A stretch of DNA of 64,000 nucleotides from Sinorhizobium medicae (GTDB taxonomy: Bacteria; Pseudomonadota; Alphaproteobacteria; Rhizobiales; Rhizobiaceae). Positions 4,078-52,726 of the stretch are shown in pieces. The DNA is taken from contig NZ_VITA01000007.1 of assembly GCF_007827695.1 (NCBI RefSeq), positions 186,001 to 250,000 on the forward strand. Reading direction: 5' to 3'. The stretch's first letter is position 1. The number at the start of each line of letters is the position of its first letter. Both the position numbers and the translations under genes were made by a program. The notes beneath the pieces were generated by a model, which saw only the letters and a list, made by a program, of their open reading frames with translations, had not been told where the DNA came from and made no database searches.

Positions 4078-4596
4078 TCAGTTCGCTCCGAAGGCGGTCT
4101 GCAGCAATTTGATCTGCGCCTTCACACCATTCTGATTGTCCGGTACGAAGCTCGTCATTTCCTGTGGCCGATAGATTTCGCGGTCGAGCAGGGCGACGCG
4201 ATTCTGCAGCCGCAGCGACCGCTCGATCAGGTCGCGGAAGCTTTCCGGCAAGTCGTTCCATCCGGGCGCACTGCGATCGACATTGAAGCTGTCGAGCCGG
4301 ACTTTGTTCTTTTCCGACAGAACCTGGTCACGGCTCATCTCGCCATTGTTGACGGCGCGCTGCAGAAGGAGCCAGGAAGCCATCTGCATCAGCCGGGTGG
4401 TAAGCCGCATCGACTCGGCGGCATAGAGAACGGATGCCATGCGCGGCAGTACCTTTGCTGCGGTGCGGCCGGGACCATCCAGATAGCTCGCCGTTTCCTC
4501 GACCAGGCCCATCCCTTCAGAGTAGAGCGCCTTGAACTGCGCCGACGACGCAGCGTGACCGGCGAAACTGACGGTATTCAATCCTCTTTCGGACAT
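4078..4596 (-). CDS. rcdA: RcdA, adaptor for regulated CtrA degradation (DUF1465)
   Basis: 172 residues matching the DUF1465/RcdA family: GMGLVEETASYLDGPG, ESMRLTTRLMQMASWLLLQ and the following helix are its conserved core, a three-helix bundle with a disordered C-terminus. In Caulobacter, RcdA with CpdR and PopA delivers the master cell-cycle regulator CtrA to the ClpXP protease; in S. meliloti the homologue is part of the same pathway. ATG 4596 is chosen over upstream in-frame starts because AGGGAA sits 7 or 8 bases before it and the family begins here. An exact TTAA-N7-TTAA site lies 124 bases upstream, suggesting that CtrA itself controls this gene. A terminator follows. Confidence 0.85.
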   Translation of the reverse strand: MSERGLNTVSFAGHAASSAQFKALYSEGMGLVEETASYLDGPGRTAAKVLPRMASVLYAAESMRLTTRLMQMASWLLLQRAVNNGEMSRDQVLSEKNKVRLDSFNVDRSAPGWNDLPESFRDLIERSLRLQNRVALLDREIYRPQEMTSFVPDNQNGVKAQIKLLQTAFGAN

Positions 4597-4719
4597 GCCT
4601 GTATTCCCTGGTTCCAACGCATCACGACTGTCAGGTAACGGGCGGCTCTGGGAAAAGTTTCCTGAGGCCCCTCCATGCTCGAAGAATGATCCCATACCGC
4701 ATTCCGCGCAAGGGCATTC

Positions 4720-4734
4720 TTAAGAAAGGGTTAA
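4720..4734 (-). promoter_or_regulatory. CtrA-type binding site upstream of rcdA
   Basis: Exact TTAA-N7-TTAA (spacer GAAAGGG on the plus strand), the recognition pattern of CtrA. It lies about 124 bases before the rcdA start, where it could overlap a promoter -35 region. Confidence 0.6.
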
Positions 4735-4773
4735 TCTCCACAATTCTTTGGAGCCATGCTGTCGTAAAGCAAA

Positions 4774-4890
4774 AAAAGAGCCGCGCGAAGCGGCTCTCAA
4801 GGTAAAACAGGGAGAAAAATCAGACCATTCGCCAGTCGGTGAAATTGTCTGAGTCCGGAAGGAAACCGGATGATCCTACAATCGCAGATA
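4774..4890 (-). ncRNA. Possible small RNA ending at an orphan terminator
   Basis: On the minus strand, AGAGCCGC and GCGGCTCT (4777-4797) pair and are followed by seven T residues, a textbook terminator. No plausible ORF precedes it before the RIME at 4964, and a second CtrA-type site lies at 4895-4909. The simplest reading is a short non-coding transcript of about 100 nucleotides read away from that site. The start is a guess; only the terminator is seen directly. A remnant of a lost gene is the alternative. Confidence 0.35.
4777..4797 (-). terminator. Orphan rho-independent terminator
   Basis: An 8-base stem with loop GCGAA on the minus strand, followed by a run of seven T. It does not follow any recognised gene: rcdA starts downstream of it and DUF1192 ends more than 300 bases away across two RIMEs. 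Confidence 0.8.
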
Positions 4891-4894
4891 TTGC

Positions 4895-4909
4895 TTAATA
4901 TGGAGTTAA
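4895..4909. promoter_or_regulatory. Second CtrA-type binding site in the rcdA upstream region
   Basis: Exact TTAA-N7-TTAA with spacer TATGGAG, followed by CC on the plus strand as in the fuller TTAACC half-site. A GANTC (CcrM methylation) sequence lies nearby at 4851-4855. It could drive the candidate small RNA on the minus strand. Confidence 0.55.
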
Positions 4910-4914
4910 CCCCT

Positions 4915-5019
4915 AGAGCGGGATGAGGAAAAGTGTGTGCGGTTTTCCGCCCGCATCCCGCTCTAACTTATTGGAATCGATCATGTTCATGTTCTTAGGT
5001 CGATTCGACCTAAGAACAT
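4915..5019. repeat. RIME element, copy 1 (two palindromes)
   Basis: A 50-base palindromic block (4915-4964, starting AGAGCGGGATGAGG and ending CATCCCGCTCT) followed by a second palindrome at 4989-5019 with 15-base arms and a 1-base centre. This two-palindrome layout of about 105 bases is that of the Rhizobium-specific intergenic mosaic element. Confidence 0.8.
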
Positions 5020-5027
5020 CGTGATCT

Positions 5028-5077
5028 AGAGCGGGATGAGGAAAAGTGTGTGCGGTTTTCCGCCCGCATCCCGCTCT
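5028..5077. repeat. RIME element, copy 2 (first palindrome only)
   Basis: Its 50 bases are identical to 4915-4964 and in the same orientation. The second palindrome is not recognisable after it, so this copy looks partial. Confidence 0.8.
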
Positions 5078-5123
5078 AACTTGTTGAAATCGATCTCGTT
5101 CTTGATTTCAGATCTATCCGAGT

Positions 5124-5312
5124 TCAACGAAAGAGGCTTTCGGCGGCGGACCGGCTTGCCGATTTGCGGTTCATTTCCGCTTCCAGCCTTGCGATTTCTT
5201 GCGTCAGGAGCGCGATGCGCGCGTTCAGTTCATCCACCGAGAGCAGCGAAAGGTCGCTGCCGATCTCGTGCTCGGTCTTCTTCTTCGCTTGGTCCTCGTC
5301 AAACAGGCTCAT
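5124..5312 (-). CDS. DUF1192 family small protein
   Basis: 62 residues. The sequence (MSLFDEDQAKKK, HEIG-DLSLLSVDEL, ARIALLTQEIARLEAEM) fits DUF1192, a short alphaproteobacterial family with one predicted helical hairpin or coiled coil; its function is unknown. The start overlaps the last 14 bases of the upstream MFS gene, so the two are probably co-translated. It is shorter than most ORF cut-offs for a separate gene but the conserved core and C-terminal AAESLFR support it. Confidence 0.75.
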   Translation of the reverse strand: MSLFDEDQAKKKTEHEIGSDLSLLSVDELNARIALLTQEIARLEAEMNRKSASRSAAESLFR

Positions 5313-17510: not shown

Positions 17511-17640
17511 GATGCGGTCTGCACTTCTCGACAGGAACCACAATCCCCGGGGCCATACACGATCTCAAGGGAACTGTCCCTGGCCGGACCCGTGGGTCCG
17601 GACATACGGTGCCCACCTACCTAGTAGGTACCCGGGATCG
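17511..17640 (+). ncRNA. ssrS: Probable 6S RNA
   Basis: The call rests on position and fold. It lies directly after zapA and upstream of the cyclo-ligase gene, the classic 6S location. A perfect vegetative -10 box CTATAT is at 17501-17506. The following RNA can form a closing stem (GGTCTGCAC at 17517-17525 with GTGCCCACC), a large bubble with a small hairpin on its 3' side (CCGGACCC/GGGTCCGG), and an apical arm (GGCCA/TGGCC, AGGGA/TCCCT). This is the open-promoter-like shape by which 6S RNA binds RNA polymerase. Both ends are approximate, and the last bases overlap the convergent LysR gene. Confidence 0.6.
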
Positions 17641-18568
17641 TAAAAAATCCATCGGTCGTTGTGGATCGCGCTTCTTCCTTTTCCTGCTCGGCCCCTTCCA
17701 GCCTGGCCGGTGCTCGAAAGGCGCGTCGGATGGCATCCGCCATGGCGTTGACCGTCGGCGACCGGTTCTCGCGCCTCGTTCGCAGCACCACGTTCGACAT
17801 GTCGATGATACCGAAGCCGTCTTCCTCGGTGAGTTCGCGGCAGCCGGCCGGTATGGAGCTTCGCGATAAAGGTGCGATCGCAAGGCCCGACAGGACGGCA
17901 GCAATGAGCCCGCCGCTCGTGCGGCTCACATAGGCGATGCGGCACTCCAGGCCGCGCGCCTTCAGGCTCCGCAGAGCCAGGTCGTCGCACCAGCCGCCTT
18001 CCGCATATGTATAGGTGGCGATCGGTAACGGCTGCCTTTGGTGGGCGCCATGCTGGTCGCAGGTCACCCATACGGTAGGATTCACCATGAGAACCTCGCT
18101 CCGGGTGCGTCCGCCCGGCTCGAAGACGACGGCGATGTCGATTTCTCCGGCCGCGAGCGCTGCCGTATTGGACATCGAGGTATCCTGCCGCACCGTCACT
18201 TCCACGCCAGGATGAATGGCCGCGAAAGCACCGAGCGCCTTCGGGAGTGTGGAGTTGATATACTCTTCCGAAATCCCGATCCGGACCGAACCGTCAAGCG
18301 CCGGTGAGCGCATCGCTGCCGCCGTGTCGTCGAGAAGGGTTACGATACGGCGTGCGTTGTCGACCAGACGCCGGCCCTCGTCCGTCAGTATCACGCCGCG
18401 CGAATGGCGTTCGAACAGCGCGGAGCCGATGAGCTCCTCGAGCTTGCGAATCTGCATGCTGACCGCCGATTGCGTGCGGCGCACGATGTCGGCAGCCCGC
18501 GTCACGTTGCCGGTATCGGCAACGGCGAGAAAGGTTCTGAGGAGATCGCTGTCGAGCGGATTTACCAT
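17621..18568 (-). CDS. LysR family transcriptional regulator
   Basis: 315 residues. The N-terminal winged helix-turn-helix (about 4-62; LLRTFLAVADTGNVTRAADI, TQSAVSMQIRKLEELIG) is typical, followed by a LysR effector-binding domain. ATG 18568 (MVNPLDSD) is chosen over 18601 because family members start just before the helix-turn-helix. It is divergent from a DUF1127 gene, a frequent pairing in rhizobia, so that gene is a likely target together with its own promoter. Its 3' end runs into the probable 6S RNA. Confidence 0.85.
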   Translation of the reverse strand: MVNPLDSDLLRTFLAVADTGNVTRAADIVRRTQSAVSMQIRKLEELIGSALFERHSRGVILTDEGRRLVDNARRIVTLLDDTAAAMRSPALDGSVRIGISEEYINSTLPKALGAFAAIHPGVEVTVRQDTSMSNTAALAAGEIDIAVVFEPGGRTRSEVLMVNPTVWVTCDQHGAHQRQPLPIATYTYAEGGWCDDLALRSLKARGLECRIAYVSRTSGGLIAAVLSGLAIAPLSRSSIPAGCRELTEEDGFGIIDMSNVVLRTRRENRSPTVNAMADAIRRAFRAPARLEGAEQEKEEARSTTTDGFFTIPGTY

Positions 18569-49486: not shown

Positions 49487-49502
49487 TTAATCAGCGATTA
49501 AC
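49487..49502 (+). promoter_or_regulatory. CtrA-type binding site upstream of the first OMP gene
   Basis: Exact TTAA-N7-TTAA (spacer TCAGCGA) ending in CC, 92 bases before the start of the outer-membrane protein gene. The surrounding 60 bases are unusually AT-rich, as at a promoter. Confidence 0.6.
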
Positions 49503-49593
49503 CTTTACCCTTCAGTGTGCGTCGAAGCATACGGACAGTCACGACTGTGTTTGTCGGTCGTTCAAGAATACTCTAATGTATTGGGGTTGGGGC

Positions 49594-50421
49594 ATGAAGA
49601 AGATTTTCAGGGGCGTTGCCGCGGCTCTGCTAAGCGGCACGCCGGTATATGCGGCGGACGTCTATCAGCCGCCGGTGGAAGCACCTTTCGTCGAGCAGCC
49701 GGTGGAGGTCGTGCAAAGCAGCGGCTGGTATCTGCGCGGCGACGTCGGATATGCTTGGAATGATCTGCGCGGAGCGCACTATTTTCAAGGCTCGAACAGC
49801 AACCTGGTCGATTTCGACAGGGCCGATGTCGATGATTCCTACGTGCTCGGTGGGGGTGTCGGATACCAGATCAACAACTATCTGCGCGCCGACCTCACGC
49901 TCGATTATCTCGGCGAGTCCGACTTCAACGGTTCTACCACGGGCGGTTGCGGGGTTGCGGTCAATTGCGTCTCGAACGATGTCGCATCGATGTCCGCCTG
50001 GAGCCTGCTCGCCAATGCCTATGTTGACATCGGCACCTACGGCGCCTTTACCCCCTATGTCGGTGCCGGTATCGGTGGCACCAGGGTAAAGTGGGGAACG
50101 CTGCGCAACACCAGTTGCGATGTTACCGATCCGAGCAACTGCGACCCCACGGTCGAGCATAAGGGCGAAAGCGATTGGCGCTTCACCTATGCGCTGATGG
50201 CCGGTACCGCGGTGGATCTCACCTGCAATCTCAAGGCCGATGTCGGTTACCGCTTCCGCCACATCAATGGCGGCGACATGTTCGGGTACAATCTGAACAG
50301 CGGTCCGGCCTATGACAAAGACATCTATGTTCACGAGGCGCGGGCCGGCCTGCGCTATTCTTTCGGCAACAATTGCGAGGCGGCCTATGTACCGCCGGCG
50401 GAGCCGATCGTTTACAAGTGA
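49594..50421 (+). CDS. Outer-membrane beta-barrel protein (Omp25/Opa-like), copy 1
   Basis: 275 residues. A signal peptide (KKIFRGVAAALLSGTPVYAA) is followed by a small-barrel porin-family pattern with alternating hydrophobic strands: SGWYLRGDVGYAWN, YVLGGGVGYQINNYLRADLTLDY, AFTPYVGAGIGGTRVKW, FTYALMAGTAVDL and a C-terminal strand. The four-Cys content and the strand pattern are shared with the gene at 50613, so the two are tandem paralogues. ATG 49594 is chosen for the signal peptide. Function: probably a structural or adhesive surface protein. A CtrA-type site lies upstream. Confidence 0.8.
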   Translation: MKKIFRGVAAALLSGTPVYAADVYQPPVEAPFVEQPVEVVQSSGWYLRGDVGYAWNDLRGAHYFQGSNSNLVDFDRADVDDSYVLGGGVGYQINNYLRADLTLDYLGESDFNGSTTGGCGVAVNCVSNDVASMSAWSLLANAYVDIGTYGAFTPYVGAGIGGTRVKWGTLRNTSCDVTDPSNCDPTVEHKGESDWRFTYALMAGTAVDLTCNLKADVGYRFRHINGGDMFGYNLNSGPAYDKDIYVHEARAGLRYSFGNNCEAAYVPPAEPIVYK

Positions 50422-50494: not shown

Positions 50495-50510
50495 TTAACC
50501 CATAGTTAAC
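50495..50510 (+). promoter_or_regulatory. CtrA-type binding site upstream of the second OMP gene
   Basis: Exact TTAA-N7-TTAAC (spacer CCCATAG), with a third TTAAC half-site at 50526. It lies 103 bases before the gene start at 50613, nearly the same distance as in the paralogue. Confidence 0.6.
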
Positions 50511-50612
50511 CCGTGCCTGCAATAGTTAACGCTGATGGCCGGTTTCGTGTGCGGCGCCTTGGATCGCCAAATCCGCAGCACTTCGAAAATGGCCCCAGCG
50601 AGAGGGCATGGC

Positions 50613-51410
50613 ATGGATTGGCGACGGGGACTTTGCAGTGTGGCGTTCTGCGCCGGCCTTTCGGCGCCCTTCTTCGCACAGGCCGCCGATGAAGATTTTC
50701 TGGACGCGCCCGAAATCACGATCTCGTCAGAAGAAGCCGCCGGTGGCGGCCTGTATCTGCGTGGCGACATAGGCTATGCGGCCTGGCTGGACGAAGGAGA
50801 TCCCTACTATCGTTCCCCCGGCTCGGGCAATGTGGCCTTCGACAATGCACGTTTCGAAGAGCCGGCCTCCGCCACGATCGGCCTGGGGTATCAGTTCACC
50901 GATGTAATTCGTGCCGACCTTACGGCCGAATATTTCGAGGGCCGCTTCGACGGGACCTCGCTCTCCGCCCCCCCCTGCGCGGGAGAGGGTGCGGGGACAG
51001 GGTGCGCCTTTTCCCATCGCGCCAATTTTTCCGCGCTCGGACTAATGGCAAACGGCTATGTCGATCTGGCGACGCTTGCCGGTTTCACGCCCTATCTCGG
51101 TGCCGGTATCGGAGCGACCCGGATCGACTGGAAAACGGCTCATGAGACATCGTCTTGCGTCGGGCCAGGCGGTGCATGCTCCGGTAACGCCGGCGGCGCT
51201 TCCTACGGCGGACGGGACAGCTGGCGCTTTACCTATGCCCTCATGGCGGGCGTCTCCTATGACGTCACGGACCGGCTGAAGTTCGATGCCGGCTATCGCT
51301 ATTCGCAAATCTCGGACGGTGACATGTTCGGCTCCGGGGACGCGCAGGGCTACGACGATGGGCTCTCGCGCCATGAATTCCGCGTTGGACTGCGTTTCGC
51401 GCTTTGGTAA
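50613..51410 (+). CDS. Outer-membrane beta-barrel protein (Omp25/Opa-like), copy 2
   Basis: 265 residues. Signal peptide (RRGLCSVAFCAGLSAPFFAQAA), then strands GLYLRGDIGYAAW, ATIGLGYQFTDVIRADLTAEYFEG, AGFTPYLGAGIGATRIDWK, WRFTYALMAGVSYDVTDRLKFDAGYRY, ending HEFRVGLRFALW, whose final aromatic residue is the usual signal for outer-membrane insertion. It follows the related gene on the same strand after 191 bases. ATG 50613 (MDWRRG) is used with GAGAGGG upstream; ATG 50589 is in frame but would lengthen the signal. Confidence 0.78.
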   Translation: MDWRRGLCSVAFCAGLSAPFFAQAADEDFLDAPEITISSEEAAGGGLYLRGDIGYAAWLDEGDPYYRSPGSGNVAFDNARFEEPASATIGLGYQFTDVIRADLTAEYFEGRFDGTSLSAPPCAGEGAGTGCAFSHRANFSALGLMANGYVDLATLAGFTPYLGAGIGATRIDWKTAHETSSCVGPGGACSGNAGGASYGGRDSWRFTYALMAGVSYDVTDRLKFDAGYRYSQISDGDMFGSGDAQGYDDGLSRHEFRVGLRFALW

Positions 51411-51504
51411 TGCAGCGCCGGTTTGCTTTAAACGGCAAAAGTTTCTTCAAACACGACGCTGCCGCTTGACTTCCTCTCCGAGCCGCAATATCCCCGACAG
51501 CGGG

Positions 51505-51547
51505 ACACCCCTCCCCAACGAGGGGCTTCTATCTGAGAGGATAGCAT
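51505..51547 (+). promoter_or_regulatory. serC leader RNA motif
   Basis: Two adjacent hairpins stand directly before serC: CCCCT/AGGGG (51508-51525) and CTATC/GATAG (51529-51544). The second contains the Shine-Dalgarno sequence GAGAGG and ends 3 bases before the ATG. This is the layout of the alphaproteobacterial serC motif, whose final stem covers the ribosome-binding site and is thought to regulate serine synthesis; its ligand is not known. Confidence 0.75.
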
Positions 51548-52726
51548 ATGACGAAGCCTGCCAAGCCGGCCCAGCGCCCGGCCAATACCCATTTTTCTTC
51601 TGGCCCTTGCGCCAAGCGTCCCGGCTGGACGCTCGAAGCTCTCTCCGACGCTCCGCTCGGTCGCTCGCACCGCGCCAAGATCGGTAAGACGAAGCTCAAG
51701 CAAGCCATCGATCTGACCCGTGAAATCCTCGAAGTGCCGGCCGATTACCGCATCGGCATCGTACCCGCTTCCGACACCGGTGCTGTCGAAATGGCGCTCT
51801 GGTCGATGCTCGGCGCCCGCGGCGTCGACATGCTGGCCTGGGAAAGCTTCGGTTCAGGCTGGGTCACCGACGTGGTCAAGCAGTTGAAGCTTGCCGATGT
51901 CCGTCGGCTGGAGGCCGATTACGGTGAACTGCCGGACCTTTCCAGGGTCGATTTCGACCGCGACGTGGTCTTCACCTGGAACGGTACCACCTCGGGTGTA
52001 CGTGTCCCGGATGCCGATTTCATTCCTTCCGGCCGCAAGGGCCTGACCATCTGCGATGCGACCTCCGCCGCCTTCGCCCAGGCGCTCGACTTTGCCAAGC
52101 TCGACGTCGTCACCTTCTCCTGGCAGAAGGTGCTGGGCGGAGAGGGCGCCCATGGTGTGCTGATCCTCAGTCCTCGGGCCGTGGAGCGCCTGGAAACCTA
52201 CGTCCCCGCCTGGCCGCTGCCGAAGATCTTCCGCATGACAAAGGGCGGCAAGCTGATCGAGGGCATCTTCACGGGCGAGACGATCAATACGCCGTCCATG
52301 CTCTGCGTCGAAGACTATATCGACGCGCTTCTCTGGGCGAAATCGGTCGGTGGCCTAAAGGGCCTGACGGCGCGCGCCGATGCCAACGCCGAGGTCATCC
52401 ATCGTTTCGTTGCAGCCAATGACTGGATCGTCAACCTCGCGGTGAAGCCCGAAACGCGGTCCAATACGTCGGTGTGCCTGAGGATTGTCGACGGCGACGT
52501 ATCGGCGCTCGACGCGGACGCGCAGGGAGCCTTCGCCAAGGGCGTCGTGGCCCTCCTCGAGAAGGAAGGCGTTGCTTTCGACATCGGCCATTATCGCGAC
52601 GCTCCGTCCGGACTTCGCATCTGGGCCGGGGCGACGATCGAAACGTCCGACATGGAAGCCCTGATGCCTTGGCTCGCCTGGGCATTCGAGACCCAGAAGG
52701 CGACGCTGTCGCAGGTCGCCGCCTGA
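51548..52726 (+). CDS. serC: Phosphoserine aminotransferase
   Basis: 392 residues. PLP enzyme with the lysine in [16 protein letters not shown] and alphaproteobacterial features ([24 protein letters not shown]). It makes phosphoserine from 3-phosphohydroxypyruvate and glutamate. The serA product supplies its substrate and is encoded 79 bases downstream, so the two form a serine operon. A serC leader RNA covers the start. Confidence 0.95.

Follow-up and report, generated by a model that had tools for sequence, protein, structure and literature searches.

The closest described system to the locus studied here is a trans-acting small RNA (sRNA) of Sinorhizobium meliloti, Sm84 or SmelC671, called ReC71 in R. 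etli. The accessible part of Valverde 2008 locates sm84 in the interval from SMc03988 to SMc03989, the three genes sharing one orientation, predicts a sigma-70 promoter for it, and tabulates an expected length of ~110 nt and a Northern band of ~80 nt, while an RNA-seq table of 2010 gives 100 nt. A 2020 review table puts SmelC671/Sm84 at 2986421-2986520 on the plus strand and 6S RNA at 2972090-2972252 on the minus strand, and lists no promoter motif for SmelC671. The broad distribution of the sRNA in the order was described in 2011, according to the available text of that account. Two further sRNAs invite comparison. Caulobacter CcnA likewise has a C-rich loop and a promoter in which a CtrA site is predicted, and differs in its length of 182 nt and in the place of its gene at the replication origin; a S. 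meliloti homologue was not clearly detected by the CcnA authors (PMC8959179, accessible part). GspR (SmelC775) is a Sinorhizobium sRNA that belongs to the CtrA circuit and, like the sRNA described below, has three stem-loops, but it represses ctrA, and the available part of its account gives no known promoter signature before it.

Binding of CtrA at rcdA has a literature of its own. Predicted sites are found in Brilli 2010 and Schluter 2013, as far as their accessible text goes, and a 2023 agrobacterial start-site study reports several start sites for the rcdA orthologue atu3742 with possible CtrA sites upstream (PMC10469942, in part). For S. meliloti, the available sections of Pini 2015 (PMC4433202) report CtrA ChIP-seq occupancy at the rcdA promoter region, naming no particular site, and no significant change in rcdA on CtrA depletion, by array or by qPCR/lacZ; they also report higher CtrA on RcdA depletion and lower CtrA on rcdA overexpression. 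In Caulobacter, rcdA is among the CtrA-bound, cell-cycle regulated promoters, and activating full CtrA boxes lie near -35, for example at -39 at ctrA P2 (PMC4287350, accessible part). The initial annotation had left it open whether CtrA sites upstream of rcdA were already described, a question on which these sources bear. Across the main texts of the open-licence literature we found no link of Sm84/SmelC671 to CtrA or rcdA, nor of Sm84 to the Rfam family BjrC1505. The sRNA itself and CtrA sites at rcdA are therefore already known, and a CtrA link of the sRNA would be the new part.

Results

We analysed a 64,000-nucleotide stretch of Sinorhizobium medicae DNA, hereafter the window. A pattern scan confirmed that exact TTAA-N7-TTAA occurs twice within 190 bases, at 4720-4734 (TTAAGAAAGGGTTAA) and 4895-4909 (TTAATATGGAGTTAA), and both sites match the full-box sequence of CtrA at every defined position. 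The features of the region, all on the minus strand, are as follows.

5124 to 5312, minus strand: DUF1192 gene, upstream neighbour of the sRNA/rcdA region (Pfam PF06698); position of SMc03988 in S. meliloti by synteny
4895 to 4909, minus strand: distal CtrA-type box, TTAACTCCATATTAA on this strand; proposed CtrA activator site in the sRNA promoter
4872 to 4894, minus strand: spacer between distal box and sRNA, with a presumed -10 element (GATTGT in the window)
4771 to 4871, minus strand: sRNA gene with SL1, SL2, the stretch UUUUUCUCCCUGUUUUACCUU and a terminator, from fold, alignment A1, model R1 and synteny; ends predicted
4776 to 4798, minus strand: intrinsic terminator stem-loop of the sRNA, with a T tract at 4777-4771
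4720 to 4734, minus strand: proximal CtrA-type box, TTAACCCTTTCTTAA on this strand; the rcdA start codon follows 123 nt downstream
4078 to 4596, minus strand: rcdA (DUF1465), 172 aa, Pfam PF07323; start from protein comparison and genus alignment

The assignment of the downstream gene to rcdA was borne out, as DUF1465 extends across nearly the whole protein (PF07323, E 3.4e-59; score 199.6 bits, cut-off 25; positions 4-153 of a 153-position profile). We placed its start codon at 4596 and not at 4695, because indels within the genus at 4597-4695 break the frame and protein alignments begin at the 4596 codon. The gene order on the minus strand is DUF1192 - sRNA - rcdA, and rcdA follows the sRNA, with no change of strand, in 28 of 28 genus, 54 of 54 family and 73 of 74 order loci that could be parsed. 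Two order loci have wide spacing between the sRNA and rcdA, ~1.2 kb in L080 and ~1.4 kb in L082 (the latter with a weak rcdA match), and both keep the sRNA and a one-mismatch box. Just upstream of the distal box, 4913-5121 holds an imperfectly palindromic repeat, present twice as direct copies (96 nt, 89% alike) and not seen at that place among the other genus alignment rows listed. The repeat presumably resembles rhizobial intergenic mosaic elements.

How uncommon an exact match is depends on the control. The window contains four exact copies of TTAA-N7-TTAA compared to a mean of 0.02 in whole-window dinucleotide shuffles, so the earlier impression of rarity stands against shuffled DNA, but it fails against the whole genome (6.53 Mb), where 30 exact copies compare with 32 in the backwards-read control. 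Since the genome count does not exceed its control, the motif alone is not enriched and proves nothing; the shuffle null is too kind, and place and conservation must therefore carry the argument. Assuming that the 30 genome sites are evenly spread, ~0.025 pairs would be expected within 190 bases, a figure that intergenic AT-richness raises. The further exact copies in the window, at 49487-49501 and 50495-50509, each lie shortly upstream of one of two tandem plus-strand ORFs (49576-50421 and 50535-51410) that by eye resemble outer-membrane beta-barrel proteins.

Between the two boxes, the minus strand from 4876 to 4769 is predicted to fold into three hairpins (z -3.6; 0 of 200 shuffles as good), with the predicted sRNA running from 4871 to 4771 (101 nt). 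One terminator-like pattern was found in the region, and since region shuffles average 1.0 the bare pattern is no rarer than chance; its stem pairs are, however, kept in 47-48 of the 48 sequences in alignment A1. A terminator and three hairpins after the distal box therefore indicate a short unit that would end before the proximal box. At least three hairpins were present in 136 of 137 predicted folds. The sRNA also has a conserved stretch containing CUCCCUG, the complement of a Shine-Dalgarno sequence, and this core was fully unpaired in 69 of the 137 predicted minimum-energy folds. Because A1 comprises 48 sequences selected by a pattern containing CTCCCTG[TC]TTTACCT, the invariance of that stretch in the alignment is partly by choice. 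The A1 consensus (RNAalifold, 48 sequences) had no pair changed on both sides, that is, no compensatory change, and SL1 is misaligned in A1 and absent from its consensus. Pairs in the SL1 arms vary widely across sequences, which is weak evidence as the script sought complementary arms, and an R1-guided alignment (A2) was too gappy and was set aside. Scanning 4500-5200 returned no sigma-70 consensus promoter, and no Rfam family matched at the sRNA in the window under curated thresholds. Positions ~12-17 nt after the distal box, where the -10 element is presumed to lie, are conserved in the genus and family and weakly so in the order.

Conservation was assessed at three taxonomic levels. The intergenic region was matched in all 33 genus genomes, and model R1, which was built from 48 sRNAs, begins at SL1 and excludes the box, matched 107 of 121 family genomes and, with strict filters, 110 of 297 order genomes, of which 98 do not belong to the family. 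We took 30 genus loci (of the 33 matching genomes), 55 family loci (45 from 214 genomes matching a DNA query and 10 from the R1 search) and 78 order loci, the last from the 98 R1-matching genomes outside the family after leaving out four near a contig end and the 16 weakest. Because the distal box was part of the DNA queries used for the genus and the family, only the order set and the sequence scan described below are free of query bias. Parsing of the distal box left out L141, L145 and L147 only, leaving 75 of the 78 order loci, and parsing of the proximal box and rcdA left out two genus, one family and four order loci. All conservation counts presuppose that the sRNA was found at the locus, and relatedness is handled only by a per-family tally, for which order-family labels were entered by hand from the R1 search.

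The distal box was sought 66-84 nt upstream of the CUCCCUG core and was present with at most one mismatch in all 30 genus loci (22 exact, 8 with one mismatch; TTAA-N7-TTAG in 8 of 30), in 50 of 55 family loci (42 exact, 8 with one mismatch, the other 5 having two) and in 71 of 75 parsed order loci (47 exact, 24 with one mismatch, with two in a further 3 and three in 1). Three control intervals shifted further upstream gave 1, 0 and 0 of 30 genus, 1, 0 and 0 of 55 family, and 7, 0 and 1 of 75 order loci at the same tolerance. In all 23 order families represented, one or more loci show no more than one mismatch; 14 families have an exact box, and 19 have at most one mismatch in every locus. A sequence scan of GTDB records containing the sRNA core yielded at least 118 stretches, 80 of them among the matches listed, and 77 were examined after three proved too near an edge. 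Among these listed matches, 75 of 77 had a box no more than 95 nt away, exact in 33 and with one mismatch in 42, as against 12 of 77 with at most one mismatch for an AATT-N7-AATT control, and 74 of the 77 best boxes sat 68-79 nt before the core. Of the same 77 listed matches, 67 had rcdA no further than 1.5 kb downstream, six were too short to show it, and in four no rcdA was found. The genera among them included Bradyrhizobium, Rhodopseudomonas, Mesorhizobium, Phyllobacterium, Bosea, Devosia, Stappia, Roseibium and Sneathiella; one record among those listed, a Lentisphaerae bin, had no box. In the sequences compared, conservation of place is the decisive support for the boxes.

The proximal box showed another pattern. 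It is exact in 28 of 28 parsed genus and 54 of 54 parsed family loci but in only 4 of 73 order loci, where 14 further loci have one mismatch and shuffles equal the observed match half of the time on average. In the genus and family it lies 105-142 nt before rcdA, with a sole exception at 215 (L045), and in the genus alignment it falls inside a strongly conserved rcdA promoter block. The two boxes thus differ in distribution, the distal box going with the sRNA across the order and the proximal box with rcdA in the family. The claim that both sites belong to rcdA is thus supported for the proximal one, whereas the distal box is probably not rcdA's, because the terminator and a conserved sRNA gene intervene and the box follows the sRNA across the order. 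Extra DNA separates the terminator of the sRNA from the proximal box in 10 of 33 genus genomes (G005, G010, G015, G024-G027, G029, G031 and G032; ~100 to 400 nt), with both blocks still matched, and a shorter insertion of ~40 nt is present in L027.

By synteny, the sRNA is a homologue of Sm84/SmelC671. It is flanked by the DUF1192 gene and rcdA, both on the strand of the sRNA, with 6S RNA nearby on the other strand, 12.6 kb away in the window compared to 14.2 kb in the published S. meliloti coordinates, and like Sm84 it has a terminator and falls in the 100-nt length class. The published placement between SMc03988 and SMc03989 matches DUF1192 - sRNA - rcdA, so that the identity of SMc03989 with rcdA follows from synteny. 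The Rfam matches in the window were 6S RNA (17513-17671) and a serC leader (51498-51549). GspR was considered as an alternative identity and rejected, as it lies between SMc03844 and SMc03845 while the neighbours here are the DUF1192 and rcdA genes.

Against the Rfam model of BjrC1505 (RF02356), the window sRNA scored 26.7 bits over the full length, below the 50 bits that Rfam sets as the gathering score. Of the loci of nine relatives that were scanned, five reached the cut-off (L070, L072, L073, L075 and L087, 57-106 bits), and L088 (46.7 bits), L045, L046 and L061 did not. These five loci were found by likeness to the window sRNA and have the box, the hairpins, the core and rcdA; because relatives with the same core next to rcdA reach the cut-off, we regard the window sRNA and BjrC1505 as one family by descent although the window sRNA itself falls below the threshold. 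The RF02356 model extends upstream of the likely transcript over the CtrA-type box, and its 5' part probably models promoter DNA. A class search with RF02356 found matches in 39 of 385 genomes, 16 over the cut-off, and since the model covers the promoter this search is circular for the box and was not counted as evidence.

Candidate targets of the sRNA were assessed by duplex energy. In the window, the seed paired with the rcdA start region at -13.9 kcal/mol, which 34 of 100 letter shuffles equalled, and at least 10 of 69 mechanically chosen window ORFs had better seed duplexes than rcdA. Mean rcdA duplexes were stronger than shuffled ones in the genus (28 loci, -16.7 vs. -12.5) and family (45 loci, -15.3 vs. 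-11.7) but no better in the order (7 loci, -14.9 vs. -14.7). Given the window shuffles, the better ORFs and the order means, rcdA is not supported as a general target. The better duplexes included L214, L226 and L228, which by eye look like periplasmic binding proteins and are a lead only. Genome-wide, AACAGGGA occurred 3-14 nt before an ATG 27 times compared to 5 in the backwards control, a poor control as Shine-Dalgarno-like runs are enriched, and the 12-base complement of the seed, allowing one mismatch, occurred 30 times (one being the sRNA gene itself) compared to 10 in the control.

Discussion

We interpret the region as two separate minus-strand promoters with one full CtrA box each, in which CtrA would activate the sRNA from the distal box, and we assign this reading a probability of roughly 0.73 from the sequence comparisons. 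The distal box would replace the -35 element in the promoter of a 100-nt trans-sRNA homologous to Sm84/SmelC671, which would end at its own terminator before rcdA. The 5' base of the box precedes SL1 by ~38 nt, and if transcription starts at SL1, the predicted start site, the box begins at about -38; by analogy with full boxes near -35 in Caulobacter, the most likely effect of CtrA would be activation. The missing sigma-70 consensus in the scan and the missing motif in the 2020 table are both expected if CtrA stands in for the -35 element. The proximal box would belong to the rcdA promoter, its exact form being restricted to the family of the window. As CUCCCUG is a Shine-Dalgarno complement, translational control in trans is suggested, with the CUCCCUGUU stretch probably pairing with Shine-Dalgarno-like sequences of target mRNAs. 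Several observations count against this interpretation: two or more mismatches at the expected place in 5 of 55 family and 4 of 75 order loci, TTAA-N7-TTAG in 8 of 30 genus loci, a weak -10 beyond the family, the published sigma-70 prediction, a CUCCCUG core left open in only 69 of 137 predicted folds, an A1 consensus with no compensatory change, and a motif that is no more frequent than its genome control. The presence of the box in the genus and family queries also weakens the counts at those two levels.

The initial annotation proposed that CtrA control of rcdA would close a feedback loop. Such control was tested in S. meliloti, probably a close relative, and was not seen under the conditions reported in the accessible part of Pini 2015. 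Joint action of both boxes on rcdA, giving a CtrA-RcdA negative feedback loop, seems to us quite unlikely: the near-constant same-strand order of sRNA and rcdA, the opposite responses of CtrA to RcdA depletion and rcdA overexpression in S. meliloti and the CtrA-bound Caulobacter rcdA promoter would all fit it, but a terminator separates the distal box from rcdA, S. meliloti rcdA showed no significant response to CtrA depletion, and the distal box persists in order loci that mostly have no exact proximal box. CtrA occupancy without an rcdA response in S. meliloti is what would be expected of a site serving a neighbouring unit, and the sRNA may account for some or all of the occupancy that has been assigned to rcdA.

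The same adjacency, together with the several start sites and possible upstream CtrA sites of agrobacterial rcdA, could also mean that the sRNA is a terminated leader or conditional attenuator of rcdA and that the distal CtrA promoter controls rcdA by read-through. We hold this to be unlikely in view of the short S. meliloti transcripts (Northern and RNA-seq), the extra DNA that parts the sRNA from the rcdA promoter block in ten genus genomes, and the gaps of more than a kilobase in L080 and L082, two loci that offer a natural test of the independence of sRNA and rcdA. That the TTAA repeats are sites of another AT-preferring regulator, such as MucR, or generic promoter elements would agree with an exact pattern no commoner genome-wide than its control, yet a pair of TTAA halves with seven variable bases between them is kept in 23 order families, and the ChIP signal at the S. 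meliloti rcdA promoter region is that of CtrA, which makes this reading very unlikely.

Beyond the preferred reading of two promoters, we lean towards a wider proposal, an ancient alphaproteobacterial cell-cycle arm in which CtrA, from one intergenic region, would switch on an sRNA across the order and, within a single family, the adaptor through which CtrA itself is destroyed as well. Under this proposal Sm84, ReC71 and BjrC1505 would be one family by descent, and the S. meliloti rcdA ChIP signal would be at least partly that of the sRNA promoter. If this is true, Sm84/SmelC671, for which we found no function in print, would be assigned a regulator and would join the CtrA circuit, and CtrA binding before S. 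meliloti rcdA with no change in rcdA would be explained. A post-transcriptional branch of the CtrA regulon, with CcnA as its nearest precedent, would then become testable.
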